A stretch of 52,102 nt of DNA. It comes from Cytophagales bacterium (GTDB lineage: Bacteria; Bacteroidota; Bacteroidia; Cytophagales; Bernardetiaceae). The notes under the pieces are model-generated. The model worked only from the letters and a program-made list of their open reading frames with translations, was not told the DNA's origin and did not search any database. The position numbers were made by a program, and so were the translations under genes. This document shows positions 908 to 52,027 of this stretch, piece after piece (positions within the stretch are counted from its first letter, which is position 1; every line of letters begins with the position of its first letter). The stretch is taken from the NCBI GenBank assembly GCA_013299045.1, contig JAAFJX010000028.1:1-52102 (forward strand), written 5' to 3'.

Positions 908-2389
908 CTACTGCCTCTCAAAAAAGATATCGGTAGCTACTTTTGCTGAAAGCAAACAAAGCGGTATGCCGCCTCCAGGGTGCACGCTTCCGCCACAAAA
1001 ATACAAATTTTTGATGTTTTTGGAAAAATTAGCATGGCGCAAAAAGGCAGCATAGCGGTTGTTGGAACTGTTGCCATATAGAGCGCCTTGTGCGCTTTGT
1101 GTGCGGCTTTCTATGGTGCGCGGGTCAAGAACAGCCTCAGTTTCAATCAAACTTCCAATATCTCTATCTAAAACTTTGCTGAGGCGCGCCAACACGAAAG
1201 TACGCGCTTGCTGAATGAGCGCGTCCCAGTCCTGGCCGCTGTTTGGCGGTGTATTGATCATCACAAACCAGTTTTCGGAGTTTGGCGGCGCGTCCATAGG
1301 GCATTCTTTGGAACTGATATTGAGGTAAATAGTAGGGCTTGCTGGCAAATCCTGATGCTCAAAGATAGCCTCAAACTCAGCCGGATAGTTATCCGAGAAG
1401 AATAGATTATGTAAATGCAGTTCGGGGAAGGAATTTTTAACGCCCCAGTAGAAGATAATACCAGAGCTAGACTTGGGTTGTTCCAAAATTTTGGTGGGGG
1501 CTTTCTGCCCTGGTAGCAAATGCTTATAAGTGGCCGATACGTCCATATTTGAGAATACATGGTCAGCAGCAAGCTCCTTCGTTTCGTTGCTTTTTAGGTT
1601 AAGCACTTTGATACCTTGAACTTGCTTGCCCTGTATTACAATTTCTGTAACGCGGTGCTCAAAGCGAAAGACTACGCCCATATCCTGCGCCAAACGGAAT
1701 AAACTATTGGTAATTTGGAACATACCGCCCTGCGGGAAATAAGTGCCGAAGCCAAATTCAAAGTGCGGAATCATACTCATAATACCAGATGTTTGGTAAG
1801 GGTCAGAGCCGTTGTAGGTGGCGTATCGGTTAAAAAACTGCACCATGCGTGGGTCTTTAAAGTGGGCTTTATTAACGGCATCTAGGCTCTGAAAAATATC
1901 CAAAGAATAGGTTTGTGCTATGCTTTTGAGAGTTTGCAGCGTCAAGAAGTTCTTGGGTTGGTGTAAGGACTGTTCCAAAAAAACACGGTGTGTGAGCGCG
2001 TATTTTCTTTGGCTTTTTTGTAGATAATTTATAAGGCTTTGGGCGGAGTCTTGTGTGTTTTGTTCTACTTCCTGAGCAAATTTATGCAAATCCGTATAGG
2101 CTTTGAGGCGTGTGCCATCAGCAAAAAAGTAGTGGGCACAAACGTCTAGTTGGCTGTAAGTGAAATAGTTTTGAATGTTGCGCTGGGCAAGCTCAAAAAG
2201 CTCTTCTATGTATTGTGGCATTGTAAAAAGGGAGGGGCCAGCATCAAAGCGGTAGCCATGGCTGCTAAATTCTGATAACTTGCCGCCGGGATAGGCATTA
2301 CCTTCCCAAACCTGTACATTTTGCCCTTTTGCGGCAAGTCTGATAGCCGCAGCTATGCCCGCTATGCCTGCACCTACAATGTGTATCAT
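908..2389 (-). CDS. crtD: CrtI-family carotenoid desaturase, CrtD-like
   Basis: 493-residue FAD-dependent amine-oxidase-fold protein of the CrtI/CrtN/CrtD family. The Rossmann motif GAGIAG is at residues 6-11, with the ribose-binding Glu at 29 and the PGGKL segment after it. The C-terminal FAD signature starts near residue 466 as GGSVHPGGGIPLCLLSAK. The GGSVHP form, together with the GALYG segment before it, is typical of 1-hydroxycarotenoid 3,4-desaturases (CrtD) rather than phytoene desaturase CrtI, whose motif usually reads GAGTHPGAG. The family acts on membrane-associated carotenoids. Other crt genes are absent nearby, so the step (3,4-desaturation versus phytoene desaturation) is inferred from motif style. 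A GT-like gene lies 79 bp upstream on the same strand. Start ATG at 2387-2389. Confidence 0.82.
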   Translation of the reverse strand: MIHIVGAGIAGIAAAIRLAAKGQNVQVWEGNAYPGGKLSEFSSHGYRFDAGPSLFTMPQYIEELFELAQRNIQNYFTYSQLDVCAHYFFADGTRLKAYTDLHKFAQEVEQNTQDSAQSLINYLQKSQRKYALTHRVFLEQSLHQPKNFLTLQTLKSIAQTYSLDIFQSLDAVNKAHFKDPRMVQFFNRYATYNGSDPYQTSGIMSMIPHFEFGFGTYFPQGGMFQITNSLFRLAQDMGVVFRFEHRVTEIVIQGKQVQGIKVLNLKSNETKELAADHVFSNMDVSATYKHLLPGQKAPTKILEQPKSSSGIIFYWGVKNSFPELHLHNLFFSDNYPAEFEAIFEHQDLPASPTIYLNISSKECPMDAPPNSENWFVMINTPPNSGQDWDALIQQARTFVLARLSKVLDRDIGSLIETEAVLDPRTIESRTQSAQGALYGNSSNNRYAAFLRHANFSKNIKNLYFCGGSVHPGGGIPLCLLSAKVATDIFFERQ

Positions 2390-2468: not shown

Positions 2469-4064
2469 TTAGACTTCCATAAAAGCAGTATAAAGCGCAT
2501 TGTAATTGTCCATAGCTTGTTGCTGCAAGTGCAAAAAAATATCGGGGCGGCTAACGATTTGGGCGCTTAGCCCCAGGCATTCGTCAATGCTGTGTGCATA
2601 AAGAAAGCCTAGTTGCTCATAATCAGTCATAAAGGAACGCCTTCTGGTCAAATTGACAGCCATACCAATCTTCTGACGCTGCCAGGCATCTATCAAGGTG
2701 AGTGAATACTCCGAAATAAAATAGTCGCCACGCTCCAAATCTTCTTCTAAAGAAAGTTTTGAAACTTTTACATTTTGCAGGCCAGAGCTTTCCAGAAGTT
2801 CTAATACCCTAAAAATTGCCTCTGCGCCTTCATGTAACTCGTGCTGCATGGTAGGGTGCAAGCGTATGATGAACTGCTTGGTAGGAAAAAAAGCAGCTAG
2901 CTTCATAAAGCAAAGCAGCAGCAAGTCCGTATCTGAGCGATTTATCATGGCCGACCAGTCGCCAGCGTGTTGCAAGAGCAAAACGACTGTATCGACGACG
3001 GACTTTGCTGCTCTATTTTTTTCGGTGTGCATGGTGGCTTTCTGAATGAATTGAGGCGCTTTGATGGTAGGAATTTGGTGTTTTTGAAAAAAGTTGGCAT
3101 CAAACATATCGCGAACTACCACCGTTCCATACGGCACATAGTGCGCCATTTGCACAAAATAATTTGAGGAACGAAAGGCATCGCTAAAAATGTATAAATG
3201 CTCTTTGAGCGCTTCATAGAGTATGGGACTAAAGCCGTGCATATTTACACCTACACGAATAGGCTTGGTGGTTTTTGCGGTAAAATCAGCCTTCAAGGCT
3301 TCAAAAGTTTTCTGATAAATGGCTGCTTTTTTAGGTTTTTTGAGCAGAATAGCCCAATGTTTGGCCAAAGGGAGGGAGGCTGTCCGGGTTGCAGTTCCGC
3401 TTGCCCACTTTAAGCGCTTGGGCGGGGCCAGAAACAAATAAATAGCTTCGTCCGACTCAAAAACTAAAACTTTTAGCGGTTTTAGAAGATTCAGTGTGTC
3501 TGAACTAAATGGTATTTTTCTACTGCCTGGTTTGGTATGCTTTTCATAGTCCATTTTGAGATTTTTGAGCGGAATAGCCATTTGTTTTTGCCAAAATTCT
3601 ACCGAAATGCCCAAATTAAGCGGCGTAGGGGCATCTGCCTGAAAATAAATTTTGCGGAAGCGAAAGCCTTTAGCGCTTATCTTTTCAAACACAGATTTGT
3701 TTCGCTCAAAAAGCATTTTTTCTGCCAACAGTGTTGTAAAATTCGTATGGACGGTTTTGCCTTGTACAACCTCAATAGCCAGCGCGACTGAGGCTTCATC
3801 TATCATAGCTGCTTCGGAGTCCTGAAACCACTCTGCCATAAAAGAAAAAATCAGATTGGCCCTGGAGCGACTGAGCAAAAAGTCTGTTTCGTGTTCGTGC
3901 AAAAAATGGGTGGTAAGAATTAAATAACTGGCTTTTGGTTCAGCTTCAATTAGGTCAAGAATTTGCCACAAATCTGTGTTTGCGTTCAATAAAAGCAGTA
4001 TTTCTGCATTTTGCTCAGGCGAATGAGGCATTGCAGGTTCAAGTATTGGGCTTTTTTCAGGCAT
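2469..4064 (-). CDS. Putative GT-B-fold glycosyl/glycerophosphotransferase-like protein
   Basis: 531 residues, no signal peptide or membrane segment, so probably cytoplasmic. The C-terminal third resembles the UDP/CDP-binding half of capsule-type GT-B enzymes: a strand-loop with FIIRLHPTMQHE, then DYFISEYSLTLIDAWQRQKI, where a Ser in a turn is followed by a helix that would contact the donor, then a late SFMTDYEQLGF segment. This layout recalls polysialyltransferase and CDP-glycerol glycerophosphotransferase families, but the N-terminal half is unrecognised. Its start overlaps the stop of the upstream gene by 8 bp (4057-4064), so the two are translationally coupled. The partner looks like a GH57-type barrel, suggesting a shared glycan substrate. 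The enzymatic call is inference. Confidence 0.45.
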   Translation of the reverse strand: MPEKSPILEPAMPHSPEQNAEILLLLNANTDLWQILDLIEAEPKASYLILTTHFLHEHETDFLLSRSRANLIFSFMAEWFQDSEAAMIDEASVALAIEVVQGKTVHTNFTTLLAEKMLFERNKSVFEKISAKGFRFRKIYFQADAPTPLNLGISVEFWQKQMAIPLKNLKMDYEKHTKPGSRKIPFSSDTLNLLKPLKVLVFESDEAIYLFLAPPKRLKWASGTATRTASLPLAKHWAILLKKPKKAAIYQKTFEALKADFTAKTTKPIRVGVNMHGFSPILYEALKEHLYIFSDAFRSSNYFVQMAHYVPYGTVVVRDMFDANFFQKHQIPTIKAPQFIQKATMHTEKNRAAKSVVDTVVLLLQHAGDWSAMINRSDTDLLLLCFMKLAAFFPTKQFIIRLHPTMQHELHEGAEAIFRVLELLESSGLQNVKVSKLSLEEDLERGDYFISEYSLTLIDAWQRQKIGMAVNLTRRRSFMTDYEQLGFLYAHSIDECLGLSAQIVSRPDIFLHLQQQAMDNYNALYTAFMEV

Positions 4065-5238
4065 TTTCCCAGAGTTTGAGTCGCTTATAAATTTTGATGA
4101 GGTAGGGCTGTGAGCCGTCTTGAAGCCATTTTTGAATAGACTTTCCCTGCCTTGCTTGCTGTAAAAGCCACAAAAAGGCCTCTCCTTCAGTGCCTCGGTC
4201 GGTACGCCATATTGTAAACTCCTGATTTTCTATATCTTCTGGTTTTATTTTTATGCTAATTTTAGGCGAATCTTTTTCAATGGCTGATAGAATATCTGAA
4301 TTGATACATTGTAACCACATGAATTGCGCTTCCGAATTAAAGCTCTCTAAATCAAGTTCTTGTGTATATAAGTTTTGCACAAAACCTAGCATACGCATTT
4401 CGCGAAGCCACGGCATGAGGGTATGTGCCGGATATTGTGTGTAAGTGCCCTCATTGCTTGCTGGTTGTTCAAAGGTAAGTTTAGGGAGCGCTTCCGAGAG
4501 CAAAAGTCTTTCGCGTTGCGGCGCTTCGGTCTTGAGCCAGTTAAGTTCGCGGTTAAGGCTATCTGGAATAAAGAAAGGACTTTCGGCATCGCGCCAGCTA
4601 AACAAAACAGCTTCCTTACTGCTTTTATTGGCCTCATTCCACAGCTCCGGTCTATAATGATGCAAGGCAGAGAGATAACCCAATGTGAGTTCATGTGTAA
4701 AAGGAATGCAAGGCATTTCTTCGTTGTCAAAAGTCTGTATGCGGTAGGGTTGCTTAGGTAGGCGTTCCTGCCTCTGGCCTTTAAAACGACCCAGATTGAT
4801 AAAAAGCCCCCGTACGCCCATTTCGCGCAGCGTAATGACTTGGCTGGCTGAGAGTGTAAATTCGGGTGGTAAAAACCAAGGGCAAATGTTTTTGAAGGTT
4901 TTTTGTATCAAATCAAAACCAACTTTGCAGTTGGTATAAAAGCCCAAATCTGTACGCAAAACGGCTAAGTCGTGTGCATATGGGCGTAAAAGTACCTCAA
5001 AATGTGCTGGATTCTCATTAACAAATTGAATGCCCTCTGGGCAAAAACTTTGTATGTCTGCCACCGTAGCGCCCGGTAAGCCCAGCACCGCCTTGCGATT
5101 GTGGCGAACGTAAGCCGATAGCCAACGGTAAAATTCGGACTCGTAGCCACCCGAAAGTACCTCTAGCCAACGCTGTGCGCTGAGGCAGGAAGCGTCGGCA
5201 TTGAAGTTTATGACATCAACTAAAAACAAAGCCTTCAT
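4057..5238 (-). CDS. Putative GH57/polysaccharide-deacetylase-like barrel protein
   Basis: 393 residues, no export signal. The N-terminus MKALFLVDVINFNAD, the middle PWFLPPEFTLSASQV and the following GVRGLFINLGRF resemble the strands of the (beta/alpha)7 barrel of glycoside hydrolase family 57 and NodB-like proteins, where an acidic residue near a Pro-Glu turn takes part in catalysis. I cannot identify the nucleophile with confidence. The gene overlaps the next one by 8 bp, so both are expected to be expressed together. Their combined presence 1.7 kb upstream of a carotenoid desaturase could mean glycolipid or pigment-glycoside metabolism, but nothing in the sequence proves it. Confidence 0.4.
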   Translation of the reverse strand: MKALFLVDVINFNADASCLSAQRWLEVLSGGYESEFYRWLSAYVRHNRKAVLGLPGATVADIQSFCPEGIQFVNENPAHFEVLLRPYAHDLAVLRTDLGFYTNCKVGFDLIQKTFKNICPWFLPPEFTLSASQVITLREMGVRGLFINLGRFKGQRQERLPKQPYRIQTFDNEEMPCIPFTHELTLGYLSALHHYRPELWNEANKSSKEAVLFSWRDAESPFFIPDSLNRELNWLKTEAPQRERLLLSEALPKLTFEQPASNEGTYTQYPAHTLMPWLREMRMLGFVQNLYTQELDLESFNSEAQFMWLQCINSDILSAIEKDSPKISIKIKPEDIENQEFTIWRTDRGTEGEAFLWLLQQARQGKSIQKWLQDGSQPYLIKIYKRLKLWENA

Positions 5239-17650: not shown

Positions 17651-18544
17651 CTAAACGTTCTGTTCCACAAAACCAATGAGGTCGCGGAGGTTATTCATAA
17701 CAATGACGTTTTCGGGTATTCGCAAATCTTGCCCAATAACCTGATTGCCACTAACAATGAACTTTGAATTAGGAAAGCGCTCGGATACTGTATCTATATA
17801 GGCCTGCACATTGTCCAAATTGGGGTGTGTTGTAAAAACCGATAGCAAAAAATCTGGTTTATGAATATTATACGTTTCTTGAACGTCTTGGAGAGGTGTA
17901 CTTTGCCCCAAATAAAACACCCTCCCATCGCGAGATTTGATGATGTAAGTAGCAAACAACAAAGAAAGTTCATGTAACTCCTCTGCGGGCAAATAGAGCA
18001 TATAGGACTTCGCATTGGGGCTTTTGGGCGCAAGACTCTGACCGTCAATGGCTACTACTACTTTTTGGCGAATTAGGTTACTTATAAAATGCTCTTGTGC
18101 CGGATTGATAGTACTCGTGGCCCAAAGCAGGCCTACACGCACCAAAAAGGGATACACTATTTGGAGCATGGTCTTTTCAAAGCCTAGCTGTAGTACGCTC
18201 GTAGAAATAATTTTGTCAAATTGTCCTTCATCGAGGTCAATCATAGCCACTGAGAGTGCATTGATTTGGGTCTGAAAATCAGAGGCTTTGTAAATACTTT
18301 CACGAACACGCCGCGTAATTTCTTCGCGCCCCATTTTGGCTATATGCGAAATTTTATAGCCTAAATTGTTCAAAAGCGCTACGTTGAGCATTGTTTTGAG
18401 TGCGTCTGTATCGTAGTACCTGATGTTGGTATCGGTACGCTGCGGCGACACAATGTTGTAGCGCTGCTCCCAAATACGTATGGTATGCGCTTTGATACCA
18501 GTCAGGTTTTCAATATCTTTAATTGAATAAGTTGTAACAATCAT
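17651..18544 (-). CDS. MerR-family regulator with cobalamin-binding domain (CarH/LitR-like)
   Basis: 297 residues. N-terminal MerR winged helix: YSIKDIENLTGIKAHTIRIWEQRY, then the wing NIRYYDTDALKTM. The middle four-helix bundle carries Trp141 and Glu151-His152 with exactly nine residues between Trp and Glu, the Wx9EH signature that caps 5'-deoxyadenosylcobalamin in CarH photoreceptors. The Rossmann B12 domain has EELHELS, where His191 would be the lower axial ligand; the usual Gly of ExHxxG is Ser here. In the family, dark AdoCbl-tetramers repress carotenoid genes and light releases them. A crtD-like gene is in the window. Light control is inferred; B12 binding is well supported. Confidence 0.85.
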   Translation of the reverse strand: MIVTTYSIKDIENLTGIKAHTIRIWEQRYNIVSPQRTDTNIRYYDTDALKTMLNVALLNNLGYKISHIAKMGREEITRRVRESIYKASDFQTQINALSVAMIDLDEGQFDKIISTSVLQLGFEKTMLQIVYPFLVRVGLLWATSTINPAQEHFISNLIRQKVVVAIDGQSLAPKSPNAKSYMLYLPAEELHELSLLFATYIIKSRDGRVFYLGQSTPLQDVQETYNIHKPDFLLSVFTTHPNLDNVQAYIDTVSERFPNSKFIVSGNQVIGQDLRIPENVIVMNNLRDLIGFVEQNV

Positions 18545-18676
18545 ACACCAATGGCCTAGCCCCTCCTTTTAGAATTTAACCCTAACCCCTACGCACCAAT
18601 TCTGTTTGATGTTTAGTTATATTATACGCAATAACAACAGAGTCTTATAAATGTTTTGGAATCAAGCCAAAAGAGG

Positions 18677-19681
18677 CTAAACATTTTCTAATGATTTTTT
18701 GAGGGTGTCAATGACTGCCACAGGATAAGGGTCTACCTTATTGGTCATGGCCAGCTCATAAGAGAGCCAGTCGCCCCAAAGTATCAAAAAGAAAATTTGT
18801 TCCATGTAAGTATTACCTCGCGCTTTGATGTCAATGATTTCAGCAGCTTTTTGAGCAATAATTGGTCTGCATATATCAAAACGACTACTCACACGCGGAT
18901 GGTCGCCGTCCTGATAGAATTGTAGTACCACCGAATTTTTAAGAACGTTCTCAGGAAAAACCCAGCCTACAAACTCATTGTGATTCATTTCGGGCACTAT
19001 GCCCACGTGGCATATCTGCTTCGCATTTTCGTTTATTTGCTGCTGTAAGCGTACTAAAACCGGTGCAGAATAATCGCTACCATACAAGAACACTAGTTTT
19101 TCGTGTAGTTTACTGGCTATTTTACTTGCTTCCGCGCGAATCCGAGTAGCTTCTTGTGTTAAAAAGGCCCATACGTCTGGTAGTTTTTTTATCAAATCGG
19201 GCTTAACAAGGCCATAATGCGTAAACAAATGCAATAAAGCTGTAACAGAAGTGGGCAAGTGGGCGCGTGGACAGGCCGCTAGTGCATCTAGCAAATACAA
19301 GTCATAGCCGCGCTGCTCTGCAATCTCTTTCAGCTTGCCGCCTGAAGCCACACAAGCGATGCGTGCTCCAGAGGTGGCGGCCTTTTCAAGCGCGGATAGG
19401 GTTTCTTCTGTATTTCCTGAAAAAGAAGAGGCAATAAACAACGTATTTGCACCTACATAAGCCGGGAGGTCGTAGTGCTTAAGTACCTCAAAGGGAACTT
19501 TTATGTTCCCAAAAAGCAAAGATTGGGCAATGTTTCCGCCAATACCAGAGCCACCTAAGCCTGCCAGAATAACGTTCTGGATAGGGTTGGGTGTGTTCAC
19601 AAGTGGTTTGCTCTTAAATTTTTCGTGCGCATTGTACATCTGTACCGCAAAACCACTAATAAGTTGCTCCATTGTATTCAT
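18677..19681 (-). CDS. Bifunctional phosphoglucose/phosphomannose isomerase (SIS domain)
   Basis: 334 residues, the length of the PGI/PMI family rather than classical PGI. First SIS domain: GLGGSGIGG at 41-49 and SSFSGNTEET at 85-94, which bind the sugar phosphate. The second half contains PEMNHNEFVGW with the catalytic Glu/His region and ends in a C-terminal helix IDTLKKSLENV. The enzyme interconverts glucose-6-P, mannose-6-P and fructose-6-P in the cytoplasm, feeding glycolysis and GDP-mannose. It is transcribed toward the MerR gene with about 130 bp between them, so co-transcription is uncertain. Confidence 0.88.
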   Translation of the reverse strand: MNTMEQLISGFAVQMYNAHEKFKSKPLVNTPNPIQNVILAGLGGSGIGGNIAQSLLFGNIKVPFEVLKHYDLPAYVGANTLFIASSFSGNTEETLSALEKAATSGARIACVASGGKLKEIAEQRGYDLYLLDALAACPRAHLPTSVTALLHLFTHYGLVKPDLIKKLPDVWAFLTQEATRIRAEASKIASKLHEKLVFLYGSDYSAPVLVRLQQQINENAKQICHVGIVPEMNHNEFVGWVFPENVLKNSVVLQFYQDGDHPRVSSRFDICRPIIAQKAAEIIDIKARGNTYMEQIFFLILWGDWLSYELAMTNKVDPYPVAVIDTLKKSLENV

Positions 19682-20031: not shown

Positions 20032-21366
20032 TCAAACAAGAGAATCGTAATCCACTCTAATTTTTTCTATGAGTTCGCGCACAGCCGTAAATGAAACCAC
20101 ATTGGTTTTAAAGTGCTCTATGGCTTGCGCAACTTCTTTTTCGGTGGCGCTAAAGTGCCTTAAAATATTGAGCAAGTGCATTTTCATGTGGCCTTTTTGT
20201 ATGCCTGTTGTTACCAAGGACTTAATAGCGCCAAAATTTTGCGCAAGGCCAGTAACAGCAATAATCTTCATCAACTGTTCTGCGCTTGGTCTGCGCAGGA
20301 GCTCCAGCGAGCGTTTGGCCAGGGGGTGTAGGCCAGTTAAACCGCCTACCGTGCCCACCGCAATAGGAATATCCAACCAAAACTTGAAATGACCGTTTTC
20401 TATAGAACAGTCCGAAAGGCTGCGGTATTGTCCGCTGCGCGCTGCGTAAGTATGTCCACACGCCTCTATGGCTCTAAAGTCGTTGCCGGTTGCAATCACA
20501 ACAGCATCTATGCCGTTAAAAATGCCTTTGTTGTGTGTTGTAGCTCTGTAAATATCTTTTTTTGCAATTTCAATAGCCGTTTTGAACTTTTGGGCAAATT
20601 GCTCTGCACTTTGGTCTTCTATTTGTCCAAGTTCTGTGATGGGGCACTCTACCCATGCACGCACCAAGCACTCTGGTGTATAATTGGACAAGATGCAAAG
20701 GACTACGTTTACGTCTTTTTCTTCACTTGTAAACATTTCTTTGCCTAGCAACCAAGCCTTAAAGGACTGTGCAAAGTTTTCTAAGCATGAATTAATAAAG
20801 TTTGCGCCCATAGAATCGCAGGTATCAAACGTAATCTTGAGTTGGTAGTAATCCTGTATCAGATGGCGTGCATCTACAAGTTCAACGTCCAACACACCAC
20901 CGCCCCTCGCCGTCATGTTTTTCGTGATGCTGGCCGCATTACCCAATAATTCTTCGCGCAGTTCATCAAAAACACAATACAGTTTATGGTAGTCGCCTTT
21001 CCAAAGAAAATGGATTTGACCTATTTTTTTTGTGCTGATGACCTCAGCCTTGAACCCACCACGCGAAAGCCAAAACTTGGCGCTTTTAGACGCTGCCGCC
21101 ACCACCGAGCTCTCTTCTATGGCCATCGGTACGGCATACAGTTCGCCGTTAATCAAAACGTTAGGCGCTATACCAAAAGGGATATAAAAATTAGTGATGG
21201 TGTTTTCACTGAACTCGTCATAGAGTTTTTGTACTTCGGGCTGTGGGTGAAAATAGCTAATGAGCTCTGCCTCATATTCCGTACTGTGCTCTGGGCTAAT
21301 GGATTGCGCTATCCAGCGAATCTTATCTTCTTTTGATAATTTTGAAAAACCTTCTATGGGTGTCAT
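20032..21366 (-). CDS. Class II hydroxymethylglutaryl-CoA reductase
   Basis: Start at 21364-21366 (MTPIEGFSKLSKEDK) gives 444 residues; the open frame to 21465 is a basic extension unlike the family. Class II features are all visible: ENTITNF with catalytic Glu54, PMAIEESSVVAAAS, DTCDSMGANF, NKGIFNGIDAVVIATGNDF with Lys280 and Asp296, and MKMH with His397. Lys-to-Asp spacing of 16 equals that in the Pseudomonas mevalonii enzyme. The reaction links HMG-CoA and mevalonate; in Bacteroidota with carotenoids the biosynthetic direction is likely, although class II enzymes are often annotated as degradative. Cofactor preference cannot be read from the sequence. Confidence 0.9.
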   Translation of the reverse strand: MTPIEGFSKLSKEDKIRWIAQSISPEHSTEYEAELISYFHPQPEVQKLYDEFSENTITNFYIPFGIAPNVLINGELYAVPMAIEESSVVAAASKSAKFWLSRGGFKAEVISTKKIGQIHFLWKGDYHKLYCVFDELREELLGNAASITKNMTARGGGVLDVELVDARHLIQDYYQLKITFDTCDSMGANFINSCLENFAQSFKAWLLGKEMFTSEEKDVNVVLCILSNYTPECLVRAWVECPITELGQIEDQSAEQFAQKFKTAIEIAKKDIYRATTHNKGIFNGIDAVVIATGNDFRAIEACGHTYAARSGQYRSLSDCSIENGHFKFWLDIPIAVGTVGGLTGLHPLAKRSLELLRRPSAEQLMKIIAVTGLAQNFGAIKSLVTTGIQKGHMKMHLLNILRHFSATEKEVAQAIEHFKTNVVSFTAVRELIEKIRVDYDSLV

Positions 21367-21850
21367 TGAACAAAGACTTTGTATTAAAACGAATTTTTTG
21401 TAAGTAATGTTTTTGTAAGTAATGGAAGCGTACTTGCGGTGCTTGCGGCTGAACGAGGGACTCAAAGACTTAAACGAACAAAGCCCTAAACAGTTTTAGG
21501 GGCTGTGCTTTTTTTGTTTAATGTTTGTATAACCTAAAAGAAATGAATATCTGTCTCTTAGTTACATTATTTATCAGAATACCAATAGATTAGCTCTGAA
21601 AACTGCAGCATGAATAGTTATTTGTTGGTGCTCATTGAATCTTGTTTTATTCTAAGAATTATGTTTACCGAAGCAGTCTCATTTCTTTTTGATTTTTTGA
21701 TACTAAAACCTTATAAAACCCCAGCCCATACTATTTCTTATCAAAGAACATTTGGTAGCGTAAAGTTAATAAGGTTTTTTGTAGTTGGTAGGATAAAGAA
21801 GAAATATTTTGGCGGATTATAGCTACCACTGCTTAAGAATTCAGTTGTGC
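21367..21850. other. Intergenic region between HMG-CoA reductase and the CHAT gene
   Basis: 484 bp. It holds one terminator-like hairpin at 21481-21516 (AGCCCTAAA with TTTAGGGGCT and a T-run on the plus side). The rest is AT-rich. A plus-strand frame at 21610-21822 (70 codons) has no signal, domain or good start context and is not called. Nothing else is recognisable. Confidence 0.4.
21481..21516. terminator. Hairpin with T-run between HMGR and CHAT genes
   Basis: AGCCCTAAA and TTTAGGGGCT form a stem with one bulge, followed by GTGC and seven T on the plus strand. The minus-strand side has only a weak T-rich tail, so it may end stray plus transcripts or sit in the leader upstream of HMG-CoA reductase. 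Its direction is unresolved. Confidence 0.4.
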
Positions 21851-24800
21851 TCATTCTCCCACCATTACAAAAGCGCCCCAGTAGTAAGGCTCAGGAAAAC
21901 GCTTTTTGAGGTTCATTTGGGCAGTTTTGAAGGCTTGGCGCTTGCTTTGACCTTTGAGTAGGGCGGTATAAAATTCGGTCATCAGTGTCTGGGTGGCATC
22001 GTCGTCCACTTTCCAGAGGCTCATCAACACGGACTTTGCGCCAGCTTGCTGGAAGGCGCGTTGCAGACCAAAAACGCCCTCACCCGCTTGTATGTCGCCC
22101 AAGCCCGTTTCGCAAGCAGACATGACGACCAGTTCCGTATTATCCAGAGTCAAATTCATGACTTCTTCTGCCGTCAAAATGCCGTCCTCTCCTTCGGGGT
22201 TTGGTTTTTGGCAGCCAGCCAGAAGCAGACCAGAGCGCATAAAAGGATTTTTCAAGAGGTTTCGGTTCATGGCAGTTTGCATATCTTGCACTTCCGAGTC
22301 CTTGATTTCGGGTATAAAAAAGCCATGCGTGGCTACGTGCAAAATAGTTGGGCTTTTGAGGTTTTTGACCGCATCTTCTGTAGCGCTTTCAGCCAGAAGT
22401 AGATTTACTTTCAGTTTTTTTTGATTGAAAAGCGCAAAAAGATTTTCCACTTCTTTTTTGGTGCCAGGCAATAAAGATACTGAACCCGCCACACCCACAG
22501 CAGACTGCACACTAGAAAAACCTATGGTACGGTCGCGGTTTTTTATGGATTCGCCATCTGCTGTTCCGTAAATAGGATAACCGAGTAAACACGCCTGGTA
22601 GTTATTGTAGCTCTGGCTCAAATCAGATTTCTTTTTATTCAACTCAATCAAATCGCGGCTGCTACCAATGAGTTGAATATTAACATCTTCTAAGAGAAAT
22701 TTTTTTGTCTTAGGATTTTTCAAAGCATTCAGGCTGAGTTGATGAAAAACACCGTCGGGTGAGAAATATATTTTCTTGAAACCTTTTTTATTCAAAGAGA
22801 CCAGTTTGTCTGCGATTGGTTTCCAAAAAATATTGTAAGAAATGGTGTCTTCTATCTTAAACTCAATGCAATTTTTGTAGAAGCTCAAATAGTTGGTTTC
22901 TAAATTTTTGGCATTTGGGAATACATAAAAAGCAGGATAACTTGCTGTTTGGGCGGTCAGAAAAAGCGCGATATAAGCCGAGTCTGTTTTGACAATTTCA
23001 ATAACTGCCTCATTTTTTGCTAACTTTGCTTTCACTTCCTGCCATTCATAGGATTTAGTTTGCACGTTCTGGCCAAAGAGATTAGATTTTTTTGAGAGGT
23101 CTTTTTCTAAGATATCGATTTGGCTTTTGATGCTATCTAAGTTCAGGTTCTGTTTTTTTTGTTCTTCCAATGACGTTTGATAAAGACGGGTGTAAATTTT
23201 TCGCTGCTCTTTCCAGTTATTGAATTGTTGGGTCAGAGCAGTATCTCTACTATTCAGAATGGCATTTTTCATTTTTTGAGTTGAAGAGAAAATGATGCCT
23301 TTTGTAAAGAGGATATAGTTGTAGAGAGGGGCCGTCATTTTGGGGTTTAATGCTGAATAACTACAGGCCAGGCTATAGTAATCTGTACTATAATAAGATA
23401 CTTCTTGCCATGCTGCATACTTATCTTGCTCTGAGTAGATGGGAAATAGTGTATTAATCATTTCCTGCTTGTTTTTGATGGTTTCTGAATAATAGCTATT
23501 CGCTTTTTCTAAGTTTTGGGTACTGTGATAGACTACGCCGAGCGCATGGCTGTATTGAGCGTAATCTGGGTGCTTCTCCCCAAGTGTGGTTGTACAGATA
23601 TCAAGTGCCTCTTGATAGAGTGCTTCTGCTTGCACATATTCTTTTTTTTCCAAATAAAGATTGCCTAGATTGAAGCAGGCTGTTGCATACTCTGGGTGTT
23701 TATCGCCGAGTATCTCTTTTTTGACCCGTTTTGATTCCATGAGCAACGGCAGGGCTTTATCGTATTGCCCAAGCGTTTTATACAGATTAGCAAGTGTTTG
23801 TGCGGGGAACTGGTAGTCCAGGCTATTTTTCCCTAAAAGCCCCTCAAGAATAGTCATGGACTCTAACAATAAAGCTTCTGCTTTTTCATACAAGCCCTGC
23901 GCTTTATAGATGATTGCAGTTACATTGCAAGACTGTGCATACGACCCATGCGATTTGCCGTAGAGAGATTCATTAATTTCCTTTACTTCTAAACTGAGAG
24001 GTAGGGCATGGCTATACAAACCTTGCTCACGATAAAAATTCGCCATGTTGTAACATAAGTTCGCATAACTGCTGTGCTGTTTGCCATTAACTCTTTCAGC
24101 AATGGCTTTTGTCTCTATATACAAGGGTTCGGCGGCAGAAAAATCGCCAGTACTGCTGTAATTGATTGCTAAAAGATTGCATAGAAAAAAATAACTGGCG
24201 TTTTCTTTTCCTAATACTTCTTTTGCAATGTTTATAATTTCTTTTAAAATTGTTTTACTTTTTTCAAAATAGCCATAATTATAATACAACAGCGCAATCT
24301 TTCCGGAGTTATCAATGTAAGATATATTTTTTTCTCCCAACACTTCCTTGATTATGTCCAAAGCTTTGAGATAATGCTGCTCAGACTTAGCATAATCTCC
24401 CTTTGCATCGTAAAGCATACCAAGATTAGTGCATGACCTTGCATACTTTTTACTACGGTTGCCAAATGTTTCTTCTCTTATAGCCAATACCTCTAAGAAA
24501 TACTGTTCTGAATCTTCATATTCGCCCTGCTCCAAGCAACAGTAGCCTAAGTTATCAGATAAATCGGTATATCTATTTGATTTTTTACCTAAAACATCTC
24601 CTATTATAGCTCTAGACTCACTCCATTCAGGCTTGGCCAATGTTTGATTACCCTGATAATAGTGATTAAGCCCTAGGTTCTGTAAAACAAACGCATAACT
24701 TGTATCCTTTCCGTGTAGCGTTTTCACTTTCTTGAGAGCTATCTGTAAGATAGAGTCTGCCGCTTTATATTTTTGCTCTCTTGTTAAGGCTTGCCCTAGG

Positions 24801-24880
24801 CTGTCCAACTGCTGCCAAGTTTGAGCATGAGCCAAAGTGCTTAAAAAGAGCAGAATAGAAGTTATGTAAATATTTTTCAT
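21851..24880 (-). CDS. Secreted TPR-CHAT protease-like protein
   Basis: 1009 residues. Signal peptide MKNIYITSILLFLSTLAHAQ. Residues about 20-490 are roughly ten tetratricopeptide repeats of the 42-residue kinesin-light-chain type (recurring GKNSLDYQ, GDKHPEYA, GEKHPDYA turns). A coiled linker follows (about 540-620). The C-terminus is a CHAT caspase-like domain with the dyad in HVATHGFF (His852) and MSACETGLGD (Cys923), then the Trp-Gly-Ala-Phe ending. CHAT proteins are clan CD peptidases; relatives include HetF and the Craspase TPR-CHAT. Being exported sets this one apart from CRISPR-linked forms. No cognate effector lies adjacent. Confidence 0.9.
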   Translation of the reverse strand: MKNIYITSILLFLSTLAHAQTWQQLDSLGQALTREQKYKAADSILQIALKKVKTLHGKDTSYAFVLQNLGLNHYYQGNQTLAKPEWSESRAIIGDVLGKKSNRYTDLSDNLGYCCLEQGEYEDSEQYFLEVLAIREETFGNRSKKYARSCTNLGMLYDAKGDYAKSEQHYLKALDIIKEVLGEKNISYIDNSGKIALLYYNYGYFEKSKTILKEIINIAKEVLGKENASYFFLCNLLAINYSSTGDFSAAEPLYIETKAIAERVNGKQHSSYANLCYNMANFYREQGLYSHALPLSLEVKEINESLYGKSHGSYAQSCNVTAIIYKAQGLYEKAEALLLESMTILEGLLGKNSLDYQFPAQTLANLYKTLGQYDKALPLLMESKRVKKEILGDKHPEYATACFNLGNLYLEKKEYVQAEALYQEALDICTTTLGEKHPDYAQYSHALGVVYHSTQNLEKANSYYSETIKNKQEMINTLFPIYSEQDKYAAWQEVSYYSTDYYSLACSYSALNPKMTAPLYNYILFTKGIIFSSTQKMKNAILNSRDTALTQQFNNWKEQRKIYTRLYQTSLEEQKKQNLNLDSIKSQIDILEKDLSKKSNLFGQNVQTKSYEWQEVKAKLAKNEAVIEIVKTDSAYIALFLTAQTASYPAFYVFPNAKNLETNYLSFYKNCIEFKIEDTISYNIFWKPIADKLVSLNKKGFKKIYFSPDGVFHQLSLNALKNPKTKKFLLEDVNIQLIGSSRDLIELNKKKSDLSQSYNNYQACLLGYPIYGTADGESIKNRDRTIGFSSVQSAVGVAGSVSLLPGTKKEVENLFALFNQKKLKVNLLLAESATEDAVKNLKSPTILHVATHGFFIPEIKDSEVQDMQTAMNRNLLKNPFMRSGLLLAGCQKPNPEGEDGILTAEEVMNLTLDNTELVVMSACETGLGDIQAGEGVFGLQRAFQQAGAKSVLMSLWKVDDDATQTLMTEFYTALLKGQSKRQAFKTAQMNLKKRFPEPYYWGAFVMVGE

Positions 24881-46418: not shown

Positions 46419-48554
46419 CGGCGTATTTGGGGTTTCAAGATAAACGCGCAGGCGCTTTGAAAATTATTTCACCTCTACCTCAGCATCTTGATTTCCACGC
46501 GCCGATTGAGTTCGGGCTTGGTGGAAACAGGCTTTTCAGAGCCATAGGCGCGTAAGTAAAAGAGTTCTGTAGCCAAGCCCTTGCTTACCAGATAGTTTTG
46601 TACGGCTTTGGCGCGAGCCTGTGCGAGGCTTTTGTTATAGTCTGGGCTGCCTGCCTTGTCGGTATGGCCGTCCAGCACGAGTTTTTGGAAAGGCGGCTCT
46701 TTTTTGAGTGCGGTGGCCAGCGAGTCTAGTTTCTTTTTGCCGAGCGGACTCAAGGCGCTTTTGTTGTATTCAAAGCCCAGCGCACCAAGTTCCAAGAGTT
46801 TTAACAACTGCTTGTTGGCCTCTAGGCTGTCGTAGTGCTGGGTAGTTTCGGTGTCCGTCATGGCGCGAAGGCTTACGCTGTCGATATAGAAAAAACCGCG
46901 GCCTACTTTTTGGGGCGAGGATGTATTCTTAGGCCAACGGGCAGCCAGAGTGAGGTAGCGGGCGCTATCGCTGGCCACAAAACGGCAAGTCCAGGTTTCC
47001 CAGCCCAAGGAATCGCGCTGGCGTTGCTCAAAAAAGCGGGACTGAGAAAGGGTGTCAAAGTTACTTTTATTGCTCGTGCCGTCGCGTGTCTTCAGGTGTT
47101 TGGTACTTCCGTAGGTGAGCAAAAAGAAAAAATTTTGAAAATATGAATCTAACCTTGCTTTACTTGTAGCATTTTCATTAACAAGAGCAACACGTACAAT
47201 CATCTCATAAGATTTCCCTTTTTGAACCGTCTGCTTTAGCTGCGTGCCAATCGGTGTGTAATAAGCCTGAAGAGCCAATACACCATCATTCAAGGGAAGT
47301 TGCGGAATAGCTAAATAGCGATTACTTACGCCATGAGGTTCGTACTCTATTTCCGTCATCATTTTACTCCGTACCTCTGGTTTCTCCCTGATATAGCCAA
47401 TTGCATCACAGTATTTACTATATTCCATCTGTAATAGCGCGTGACTTGTATTCGTAAAGCAATCTCGTTCTGTTTTTGGAACTTCAGTCCAATGCATAGT
47501 AAACTGGTTGTAAACCATGCAGTGATTTCTCGCATTATAATCCACATATACCTCGGCAAACTGCGGATTGCGGACGAGGTTATCCTGTGCTTTTACCGTA
47601 AGAGGAAAGAGGCAGATGAAAATGGCTAAAATCATGATGAGGGGCATATTGCGGCGTATTTGGGTTTCAAGATAAACGCGCAGGCGCTTTGAAAATTATT
47701 TCACCTCTACCTCAGCATCTTGATTTCCACGCGCCGATTGAGTTCGGGCTTGGTGGAAACAGGCTTTTCAGAGCCGTAGGCACGTAAGTAAAAGAGTTCT
47801 GTAGCCAAGCCCTTGCTTACCAGATAGTTTTGTACGGCTTTGGCGCGAGCCTGTGCGAGGCTTTTGTTATAGTCTGGGCTGCCTGCCTTGTCGGTATGGC
47901 CGTCCAGCACGAGTTTTTGGAAAGGCGGCTCTTTTTTGAGTGCGGTGGCCAGCGAGTCTAGTTTCTTTTTGCCGAGCGGACTCAAGGCGCTTTTGTTGTA
48001 TTCAAAGCCCAGCGCACCAAGTTCCAAGAGTTTTAACAACTGCTTGTTGGCCTCTAGGCTGTCGTAGTGCTGGGTAGTTTCGGTGTCCGTCATGGCGCGA
48101 AGGCTTACGCTGTCGATATAGAAAAAACCGCGGCCTACTTTTTGGGGCGAGGATGTATTCTTAGGCCAACGGGCAGCCAGAGTGAGGTAGCGGGCGCTAT
48201 CGCTGGCCACAAAACGGCAAGTCCAGGTTTCCCAGCCCAAGGAATCGCGCTGGCGTTGCTCAAAAAAGCGGGACTGAGAAAGGGTGTCAAAGTTACTTTT
48301 ATTGCTCGTGCCGTCGCGTGTCTTCAGGTGTTTGGTACTTCCGTAGGTGAGCAAAAAGAAAAAATTTTGAAAATATGAATCTAACCTTGCTTTACTTGTA
48401 GCATTTTCATTAACAAGAGCAACACGTACAATCATCTCATAAGATTTCCCTTTTTGAACCGTCTGCTTTAGCTGCGTGCCAATCGGTGTGTAATAAGCCT
48501 GAAGAGCCAATACACCATCATTCAAGGGAAGTTGCGGAATGGCTAAATAGTGGT
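46402..48554. repeat. Direct duplication, two units of about 917 bp, offset 1232-1233 bp
   Basis: 46402-47318 and 47635-48550 match except for GAGCCATAGGCGCG versus GAGCCGTAGGCACG, one extra G in TTTGGGG versus TTTGGG, and AATAGCT versus AATGGCT. Each unit covers the 3' flank plus the C-terminal two thirds of an OmpA gene. Outside these borders the paralogues diverge sharply. Confidence 0.92.
46475..47647 (-). CDS. Secreted OmpA-family protein, tandem paralogue A
   Basis: 390 residues with signal ending in TVKAQ. The N-terminal region begins with the NPQFAEVYVDYNARN motif, followed by a variable stretch to about residue 110. The middle is a jelly-roll-like domain shared with paralogue B. The last 110 residues are an OmpA_C domain: LGFEYNKSALSPLGKKKLDSL, then the peptidoglycan loop GHTDKAGSPDYNKSLAQARA and LNRRVEIKML. 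It anchors to peptidoglycan while the N-terminus reaches outward. From about residue 115 to the stop it is almost identical to paralogue B, whereas the N-terminus differs at many positions. Confidence 0.88.
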   Translation of the reverse strand: MPLIMILAIFICLFPLTVKAQDNLVRNPQFAEVYVDYNARNHCMVYNQFTMHWTEVPKTERDCFTNTSHALLQMEYSKYCDAIGYIREKPEVRSKMMTEIEYEPHGVSNRYLAIPQLPLNDGVLALQAYYTPIGTQLKQTVQKGKSYEMIVRVALVNENATSKARLDSYFQNFFFLLTYGSTKHLKTRDGTSNKSNFDTLSQSRFFEQRQRDSLGWETWTCRFVASDSARYLTLAARWPKNTSSPQKVGRGFFYIDSVSLRAMTDTETTQHYDSLEANKQLLKLLELGALGFEYNKSALSPLGKKKLDSLATALKKEPPFQKLVLDGHTDKAGSPDYNKSLAQARAKAVQNYLVSKGLATELFYLRAYGSEKPVSTKPELNRRVEIKMLR

Positions 48555-48891
48555 ATAGACTTGAATTGCTATAATCTAGCTGTGTCATCATCTGATTCAG
48601 AATTTCTGGCTTTTTCTTAACATACCCTAAAGCATGATAATATTTATCCTTTTCTAACTGTATCACAGCATTACGATTACCAGAGAAAGAATCTGCATGC
48701 GTTATTGGAATTTCTATCCATGATTTTGTAAATTGACTAAAAAGCATAAAATAATCTCTCGCATTATAATCCACATATACCTCCGCAAACTGCGGATTGT
48801 GTATCAAATTATTTTGCGCTTTTAAAATAGGAGGATACAAAAAACTGTATATAAAAAGTAGAAATAATATCTTAGCCCTAATTTTCAACAT
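47707..48891 (-). CDS. Secreted OmpA-family protein, tandem paralogue B
   Basis: 394 residues with signal MLKIRAKILFLLFIYSFLYPPILKAQ. It shares the NPQFAEVYVDYNAR start with paralogue A, then diverges (DYFMLFSQFTKSWIEI instead of NHCMVYNQFTMHWTEV) until YLAIPQLPLNDGVLALQAY. From there the two match closely to the last residue, including the OmpA_C domain. At the DNA level I count only three substitutions and one single-base indel over about 915 bp, including 3' flanking DNA. It is the upstream member of the pair, 59 bp ahead of paralogue A. Confidence 0.88.
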   Translation of the reverse strand: MLKIRAKILFLLFIYSFLYPPILKAQNNLIHNPQFAEVYVDYNARDYFMLFSQFTKSWIEIPITHADSFSGNRNAVIQLEKDKYYHALGYVKKKPEILNQMMTQLDYSNSSLYHYLAIPQLPLNDGVLALQAYYTPIGTQLKQTVQKGKSYEMIVRVALVNENATSKARLDSYFQNFFFLLTYGSTKHLKTRDGTSNKSNFDTLSQSRFFEQRQRDSLGWETWTCRFVASDSARYLTLAARWPKNTSSPQKVGRGFFYIDSVSLRAMTDTETTQHYDSLEANKQLLKLLELGALGFEYNKSALSPLGKKKLDSLATALKKEPPFQKLVLDGHTDKAGSPDYNKSLAQARAKAVQNYLVSKGLATELFYLRAYGSEKPVSTKPELNRRVEIKMLR

Positions 48892-50533: not shown

Positions 50534-51991
50534 TTACGGAACAGATAATTTGAGTTGGTCTAGCATGGTTTGGATTCTTTTGATGATAGGTTCTGTGTAC
50601 CAAATTTCATTTATGCGTACCTTTTTGATTTCTACTAAGAGCTTGATAAAATCAGTAACAGCATATTTTTTGAGCAATTTGTTTTCTTTCAATAGCTTAT
50701 AAATGATATAATACCATTGTAAGGCAATGTGATTGATGAACATATAGCCCTCAAGAGCATCTTCGTCTTGCATATATGTTCGGTCGGCTTTGAGGATGTT
50801 TTTATAACCATCAAACATTACTTCTACCTCGTTGCGACTTTTATAGCTGGTAAAAATATCTTCGGCTTCGGGTTCTTCCATGTTGGTTATCATGGCTATG
50901 GTGCCAAACTGATTGAATTTGAGTGCAAATCCTTCTTTTGTGAAGGTTTCTGGCAAGGTTTCTATTCTATCCAAATAATCTTTTTTTTCATTCACTTTTA
51001 ATTTTTCGTCTAAAAACAAGAAAATAGTGCCTTTGTTGAACCTATATTTGACATGCCATATATATCTATCCTCGAATTTGAAATAACTCATCTCTTGTTG
51101 AACGATTTTTGTGTAGTCAATGGCTTTATTGTCTCTTCGTAGTGGAACAATCATTTTTAGGTTAGATTCAGTAATTTTTTTGAAATTTTCTTCTGAATAA
51201 AAGCCTTTATCGGCTATGATTATGGCATCTTTGATACCACTTTCTTGCAAACACAGTTGAAAACCTGACACATCTTTGATATTGCCACTGTATATTTTGT
51301 AAAACGCAGGTTGTTGAAGTGTGGCTGAATAAATGTAAAGCAAATTGAACTGTTTCTCAAATACCATGTCGCTATTATAGCCCTCTTTGGAATATCTCAT
51401 TTGATTGGAAGCACTAAATATGTTGGTCATATCTACCAAAATATGCTCATTGGGCTTGATAAAACTTTTCAAATAGGCTGTAATGGCATCTCTATTTTTT
51501 CCAATCGTTTTCAGGGCTTGGCTAAAGTCTTTGTCTGAATATTTTTTAGTATCACCTACGCTCAAATACGATTTGGCAACGTGCAAATCCATTCTACTCA
51601 GCGGACTTTGATGGGCTATTCGGCAATAAGCCATATAAATAATCAACTCAACATGGTTTGGGAAAAACTCACTTAATTTCAGCTTGATAGTCTGATTGTA
51701 TTGATTAAGAAATGTTGTAAACCCAAATTCTCTAACCGAAATAGTGTTTGGGTCTATAATTTGGGACTTGGCAACTTTGTCTTTGAGTTCTTTTTTGCCA
51801 GAAGGCACAAAACCGATGCCCTCTTTGATAGTTCCCAAAAGGCTTCCTGTTTTCTTTTTAGTCTTTTTGAGAATAGGGTCGTAAAACGAACTCACTTCAT
51901 AGAGATAGTACTTGTTGTTGATGAATCTAAGTTCGGTAGCAGGTTTACGATGCTCAATAGCCCAAGCTGGGTAGATGTGATTTGAAGACAT
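50534..51991 (-). CDS. IS1634-family DDE transposase
   Basis: Start at the first ATG, 51991 (MSSNHIYPAWAIEHRK), gives 485 residues; the open frame continues to 52027 only through a TTG. The catalytic triad is visible: first Asp in HILVDMTNIFS, second Asp in AIIIADKGFYSEEN, and the IS4-type signature Y-(2)-R-(3)-E-(6)-K in YKSRNEVEVMFDGYK, which holds the Glu. The frame is intact with no stops, so the element may still be active. The last residues run almost into the left terminal repeat, as usual for compact IS elements. Confidence 0.93.
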   Translation of the reverse strand: MSSNHIYPAWAIEHRKPATELRFINNKYYLYEVSSFYDPILKKTKKKTGSLLGTIKEGIGFVPSGKKELKDKVAKSQIIDPNTISVREFGFTTFLNQYNQTIKLKLSEFFPNHVELIIYMAYCRIAHQSPLSRMDLHVAKSYLSVGDTKKYSDKDFSQALKTIGKNRDAITAYLKSFIKPNEHILVDMTNIFSASNQMRYSKEGYNSDMVFEKQFNLLYIYSATLQQPAFYKIYSGNIKDVSGFQLCLQESGIKDAIIIADKGFYSEENFKKITESNLKMIVPLRRDNKAIDYTKIVQQEMSYFKFEDRYIWHVKYRFNKGTIFLFLDEKLKVNEKKDYLDRIETLPETFTKEGFALKFNQFGTIAMITNMEEPEAEDIFTSYKSRNEVEVMFDGYKNILKADRTYMQDEDALEGYMFINHIALQWYYIIYKLLKENKLLKKYAVTDFIKLLVEIKKVRINEIWYTEPIIKRIQTMLDQLKLSVP

Positions 51992-52027
51992 ATTTAATAC
52001 GTATTTACGGAATGCAAATAAAAACAA

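Follow-up and report, generated by a model that had tools for sequence, protein, structure and literature searches.

The window, that is the whole stretch of 52,102 nucleotides analysed here, encodes on its minus strand a CarH-like regulator, in which a MerR domain is joined to a cobalamin-binding domain. The gene, its domains and the neighbouring genes discussed below are the following.

17651-18544, minus strand: carH-like gene, MerR plus cobalamin-binding-domain regulator of 297 aa (ORF, profiles and predicted fold)
18332-18529, minus strand: MerR DNA-binding domain, residues 6-71 (Pfam MerR_1, 8.7e-15)
18059-18265, minus strand: four-helix bundle B12-binding_2, residues 94-162 (Pfam PF02607, 1.6e-8)
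17654-18016, minus strand: Rossmann-type cobalamin-binding module, about residues 177-297 (AlphaFold model, and VIA-align with CarH and methionine synthase chains)
18677-19681, minus strand: bifunctional phosphoglucose/phosphomannose isomerase, directly upstream of the regulator
908-2389, minus strand: CrtD, 1-hydroxycarotenoid 3,4-desaturase, context only (NCBIfam NF042421, 633.8 bits, cut-off 500)
20032-21465, minus strand: HMG-CoA reductase nearest to the NAD/degradative type, context only (TIGR00532, 259.7 bits)

Among the features of CarH, the MerR helix-turn-helix and the B12-binding_2 bundle are recognized by profiles, the Rossmann module by predicted fold. PF02310 (B12-binding) has no match in the window protein at 0.01; of the 58 sequences in alignment A2 it matches 21, the window protein not being among them. 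The AlphaFold model, obtained with A2 as input, has a pLDDT of 93.9, and its best PDB match in Foldseek is full-length Thermus thermophilus CarH (TtCarH) with AdoCbl and DNA (5c8e, E 1.7e-15). The top VIA-align row for the cobalamin domain is CtMerR of Chloracidobacterium (Z 19.5, 3.1 A, 219 residues), and TtCarH (5c8e_H) aligns over 200 residues with Z 18.8 and rmsd 2.7 A. Matches with Z 14-16 are obtained also for methionine synthase and for AppA and AerR domains, and hence the fold alone is no proof of AdoCbl binding or of light sensing.

The protein scores 84.2 bits with the NCBIfam CarH equivalog NF052513, the cut-off of which is 400. In place of the strict cobalamin motif D/ExHx2G/P-x41-SxT/V-x22-27-GG, taken from PMC9304148, it has ExHx2S, S235xF and S265-G266; the GG pair is mostly S/T-G in the homologues aligned on the motif. 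These departures, and the lack of an equivalent of CarH His132 described below, favour an alternative in which the protein resembles CarA and class II LitR: a carotenoid regulator with a cobalamin fold that has given up AdoCbl for light sensing, and is under the control of a partner or of some other signal. CarA and class II LitR show that such losses happen (PMC9304148, PMC9758184). We regard this alternative as unlikely, in view of the pocket residues and of the coenzyme supply of the family.

The regulator is not found beside crt genes in the window genome. The CrtD and HMG-CoA reductase genes, from which an earlier, sequence-only reading of the window had drawn a carotenoid context, are both there, the latter with a score just under the cut-off (259.95). 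CrtD lies 15 kb from the regulator, with other-strand genes between, and the pairing of HMG-CoA reductase and carH was discarded, as in the same-genus genome the reductase is not a neighbour of the orthologous regulator. The carotenoid context is loose locally, and strong at the level of the family. The isomerase is found beside the regulator also in the same-genus genome, the sole such locus among those compared by BLAST. The crtB gene of the window genome and its best crtI-family gene sit on contigs other than that of the regulator (C50 and C20, respectively). The C20 gene shares 27-31% identity with crtI genes of linked loci, and its role is unsure for this reason.

Additional genes of the window are worth mentioning. 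Immediately 5' of crtD, and in its orientation, lies a pair of ORFs (2469-5238; 531 and 393 aa) that overlap slightly and have no Pfam or NCBIfam match at 0.001. The region 21851-24880 encodes a 1009-aa TPR and CHAT-domain protein, relatives of which adjoin the crtI-family gene of the same genome (L070 5446, 59%) and crtB in the same-genus genome (L072 10376, 34%). Two tandem OmpA-domain genes (46475-48891) have near-identical profile scores, and perhaps result from a recent duplication. An IS1634-family transposase gene (50534-52027) is found at the end of the window.

Putative cobalamin pocket and coenzyme supply

Pocket residues were compared in a set of homologues including 131 rows, 126 of which are distinct, the window protein being part of both counts. 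The set is made up of 51 same-order loci, window included, and 80 named records, which partly overlap. CarH residues are numbered as in PMC10442372 and PMC11796333. The codons of interest are the following.

18122-18124, minus strand: Trp141, equivalent to CarH W131 (alignment with TtCarH and homologue set)
18089-18094, minus strand: Glu151-His152, equivalent to CarH E141-H142 (alignment and homologue set)
17972-17974, minus strand: His191, candidate lower axial cobalt ligand, equivalent to CarH H177 (alignment)

All these residues, singled out in the sequence-only reading, are in place and align with W131, E141-H142 and H177 of TtCarH; W141 and E151-H152 form the CarH Wx9EH motif. Trp141 and Glu151 are invariant in the distinct homologues (126/126 each), and His152 and His191 are kept in about 95% of them (120/126 and 119/126, respectively). 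This conservation argues against a regulator that has abandoned AdoCbl: CarA lacks the Trp (PMC9304148), yet no homologue has lost it. The Ser replacing Gly in ExHxxG had been noted as unusual. Ser194 is indeed present, but Ser is the commonest residue at this position (S 75/126, G 34/126, A 11/126).

Two further replacements had escaped the sequence-only reading. The position of CarH His132 is occupied by Ala142 in the window protein, and most often by Gln (66/126) or Leu (29/126), never by His (0/126), in the distinct homologues. Glu188 replaces the Gly of the GxxH signature, the main chain of which contacts the corrin (PMC11796333); Gly is found at this position in 95/126 distinct homologues. 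The AdoCbl photoreceptor signature of SignatureFinder consists of GxxW, EH, GxxH and GxxxP (PMC11796333). The window protein has three of these parts (G138-W141, E151-H152, G213-P217), and E188-H191 in place of GxxH. The signature is complete in 91/131 rows, and the window protein is one of the 27/131 that miss only the Gly of GxxH.

In TtCarH, His132 affects light-driven disassembly of the tetramer; the H132A mutant was largely tetrameric in the light in one study, while disassembly had been reported earlier (PMC10442372). The position is occupied by Arg in CtMerR, which still monomerises in the light, and by Gln in SasPcob (PMC11796333). Because of these precedents, the missing His shifts the expected light state and does not exclude a light response; the light state here cannot be the bis-His form of TtCarH, since there is no His132 equivalent. 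Alternatively, the missing His could mean that light-driven disassembly is slow or absent. This would favour an alternative in which the protein is an AdoCbl sensor of coenzyme B12 status and not of light, or in which its targets in this organism are other than carotenoid genes. We consider this quite improbable, on the grounds of the gene linkage and of the dyad found before crtB, described below.

Seven Saprospiraceae-type relatives carry Gln at position 191, and six of them have also lost His152 and Pro217. The six loci in which His152, His191 and Pro217 are lost together (L142, L146, L155, L157, L160 and L164) are natural pocket-loss controls. The joint loss suggests that the three residues serve one function. 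Linkage to crt genes is found in 0/7 of the Gln191 relatives versus 66/122 of the others, and the adenosyltransferase is kept in 5/7 of the pocket-loss genomes versus 12/12 selected genomes with intact pocket. The seven relatives probably form one lineage, and the loss of the pocket may therefore be a single event. Their existence favours, in turn, a regulator that has ceased to use AdoCbl for light.

The sequence-only reading would have been abandoned if genes for B12 uptake or adenosylation were missing, and those for adenosylation are present. The window genome hosts a PduO-type adenosyltransferase (PF01923, C4:105888-106379), a cobalamin riboswitch (C28:6264-6462) and mutase-family matches. 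In a group of 59 relatives, window genome included, no CobA/BtuR-type adenosyltransferase was found, and PF01923 is present in 46 of the 49 carriers of the homologue. The three exceptions (G001, G020, G026) all have a mutase, and for this reason the gap may be one of assembly.

Co-occurrence was monitored in 145 genomes of the order, having a completeness of at least 95%. The homologue, counted as present at E 2.1e-86 or better, is found in 127 of them; G011, G055, G138, G145 and G169, featuring a match to the MerR part only or a weak match, were counted as lacking it. PF01923 is found in 126 of the 127 genomes with a full-length homologue, G097 being the sole exception, versus 7 of the 18 without; this association speaks against loss of AdoCbl use, and is confounded, because all 11 genomes lacking both homologue and PF01923 belong to one small-genome family. 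Among the 13 genomes without mutase, PF01923 is present in 6/6 with the homologue versus 2/7 without (Fisher p 0.02). G041 and G055, which have neither homologue nor mutase, keep PF01923 nonetheless. In the mutase-less carriers G024, G040 and G058 the sole PF02310 match sits in an ORF of 893-1230 aa, a length that points to methionine synthase, and class II reductase models are under cut-off. TIGR02504 matches, found in 14/14 genomes, were considered as AdoCbl enzymes and not counted, because all are below cut-off and are found also in genomes without adenosyltransferase.

Carotenoid genes and an operator-like dyad

A carotenoid gene is found within five ORFs of the homologue at 66 of the 131 loci. 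The examined stretches of the 80 named loci feature at least one carotenoid gene in 45 cases and an ECF sigma gene in 38; the gene order crtZ-carH-ECF-crtI-crtB is found in 17, photolyase in 4 and folE in 3. In the 51 order-level loci, crtI is located within four ORFs downstream in 11, and an upstream gene from the cluster with the PF04240 tested member is found in 13, directly upstream in 9. Genes were labelled cruF, crtZ and idi from matches to Pfam Caroten_synth, FA_hydroxylase and NUDIX. A crt cluster including merR along with rpoE, crtI, crtB and crtY has been described in Echinicola marina (PMC8683446). One locus (L064, G025:C3:1-19000) combines in a single cluster the homologue, crtI, crtB, a CrtD-like gene and a corrinoid adenosyltransferase; along with a cobalamin riboswitch just past it (C3:20071), this cluster fits into about 17 kb of a single G025 contig.

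ECF sigma genes beside many homologues make other inputs possible, as expected if a partner or another signal were in control. The linkage to crt genes throughout the family, and to photolyase and folE in a few loci, speaks against a sensor of B12 status; the window gene, not being crt-linked, speaks for it. In a FastTree tree, some long-branch joins of which are doubtful, the window protein falls in a supported group of 19 rows, with crt linkage in 0/19.

A candidate operator is located upstream of the regulator.

18610-18639, no strand assigned: operator-like dyad TGTTK-N20-MAACA, with centre about 80 bp from the carH-like ATG (core search)

The core of the dyad spans 30 bp; the long form TTGTTKAA-N16-TTMAACAA is scored over 16 positions. 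The word TGTTTAA is found upstream of 51/122 homologue operons versus 15/104 control promoters. The core is found upstream of 20/122 homologue operons (shuffle mean 0.44, maximum 3), the spacing having been chosen on the same 122 regions in which it is counted, and in 0/104 control promoters. With the half-sites in the same orientation, each of the other spacings in the range 10-30 is found in 0-4 of the 122 regions. Six of the 20 dyad loci belong to one genus (g2); when one locus per 70% identity cluster is taken, the dyad is found in 10-12 of 77-79 (shuffle mean 0.2-0.3, maximum 2-4). A second arrangement, MAACA-N15-TGTTK, is found in 12/122 upstream regions (shuffle mean 0.39, maximum 2). 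A weight-matrix search identified an AT-rich motif, above the 99% shuffle level in 27/122 regions; the dyad came from spacing counts instead. TGTACA, the LitR word, is not enriched upstream of homologues (3/122 versus 5/104 controls).

A search for the operator near crt promoters had been proposed as a check of the sequence-only reading. In the window genome a core is found in intergenic DNA upstream of crtB (centre at about 100 bp); none is found upstream of the crtI-family gene or of the crtD gene of the window. In 51 crt upstream regions of 500 bp each the core is found in four (G039 crtI, G044 crtB, G058 crtI and the crtB of the window genome; shuffle mean 0.36, maximum 3), and 47 regions are without it. 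If the latter crtB, known beforehand, is set aside, the core is found in 3/50 (shuffle mean 0.41, three reached in 2/300 shuffles). In four genomes without homologue it is found in 0/5 crt upstream regions, too few for a contrast.

In 720 kb of the window genome there are 15 core matches, four of which fall in the 123 kb of intergenic DNA, and the carH and crtB dyads are two of these four. The crtB dyad scores 14/16, the highest value in the 720 kb, tied with six sites, one of them intergenic. The carH dyad is degenerate outside the core, and fits the full consensus at 11/16 positions. Core matches are found in 47/100 whole-window shuffles, one match somewhere in 52 kb being expected by chance. 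In the same-genus genome no core is found upstream of carH or crtB, and no good dyad upstream of crtB or the crtI-family gene (best 12/16). That the dyad evidence in the window genome comes down to two sites, and is not kept in the sister species, favours regulation by B12 status or of other targets; a joint-highest intergenic dyad so close to crtB argues for carotenoid targets.

Proposed regulation and known systems

The window protein most likely works like CarH, and belongs to the LitR/CarH kind as a variant branch. We do not count it among the members of CarH itself, because it departs from the strict cobalamin motif, scores under the NCBIfam cut-off and has no His132; the LitR classes named in the accessible text of PMC9758184 include no Bacteroidota class. 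The regulator is probably an AdoCbl-dependent, light-released repressor of the Bacteroidota branch of this kind, acting on itself and on carotenoid genes. Fold, pocket conservation, AdoCbl supply genes and the neighbourhoods of relatives are all in line with the CarH-type carotenoid light sensor of the sequence-only reading. For the window protein we infer cobalamin binding, oligomer change, repression, light response and operator binding. In the dark, AdoCbl would be sandwiched by Trp141, Glu151 and His152 of the four-helix bundle on one side and the Rossmann module on the other, its cobalt ligated by His191, and would keep the protein as a DNA-binding oligomer on dyads resembling TTGTTKAA-N16-TTMAACAA. 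Such dyads would be bound before the gene of the regulator itself and before carotenoid genes (crtB here). In the light, the Co-C bond would break and the adenosyl group depart; the oligomer would loosen, in a light state other than bis-His, and carotenoid genes would be expressed.

A broader proposal is put forward tentatively. The homologues could form a Bacteroidota-wide branch of His132-less AdoCbl photoreceptors, having an operator of their own (TGTTK-N20-MAACA, half-sites 25 bp apart) and controlling carotenoid and photoprotection genes; in some genomes the photoreceptor might be alone among detected proteins in using AdoCbl, and might account for the retention of the adenosyltransferase. 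If true, B12-based green-light control of pigment would be the default in this Bacteroidota order, from which a crt cluster that includes a so far unexplained merR has already been reported (PMC8683446). A light switch without bis-His ligation would also bear on a mechanistic question of this field. The dyad offers a testable regulon.

CarH photochemistry has been described for Thermus, Bacillus and Myxococcus, as well as for CtMerR and photocobilins (PMC9304148, PMC9758184, PMC10442372, PMC11796333). No CarH-type photoreceptor of Bacteroidota is found among the matches listed in open-licence PMC full text. In a Chryseobacterium with light-induced carotenoid, genes of the car or lit operons were not detected, according to the text available of PMC7064467. 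MliR of Bizionia was considered as a possible homologue and rejected, being without effector domain according to its abstract.

The window protein shares the MerR domain, the four-helix bundle and the Rossmann module with the class I CarH/LitR of Thermus thermophilus, its best Foldseek match, and the Trp, the Glu-His pair and the lower His all align. It differs from TtCarH in the low identity (about 20% over the chain), in the lack of a His132 equivalent, in having Pro for Val138 and Ser-Gly for Gly-Gly, and in that the gene is not crt-linked. Photocobilins, to our knowledge, have no MerR domain. Both these proteins and CtMerR (8JBS/8JBT) have the AdoCbl light signature without His132, as here; photocobilins differ in carrying a bilin domain (PMC11796333), and CtMerR is 14-15% identical to the window protein. 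The merR of the Echinicola marina crt cluster, compared by cluster description, has a setting like that of the Algoriphagus and Pontibacter loci found here; the accessible text of PMC8683446 does not ascribe to it any role involving cobalamin or light. Relatives that combine MerR and cobalamin fold in the control of light responses or carotenoids are Myxococcus CarA and Pseudomonas class II LitR (PMC9304148, PMC9758184). Class II LitR has kept the four-helix bundle alone, and PmlR2 uses a LOV partner (PMC9304148, PMC9758184). CarA is without the Trp of Wx9EH (PMC9304148), whereas the window protein keeps it as Trp141.
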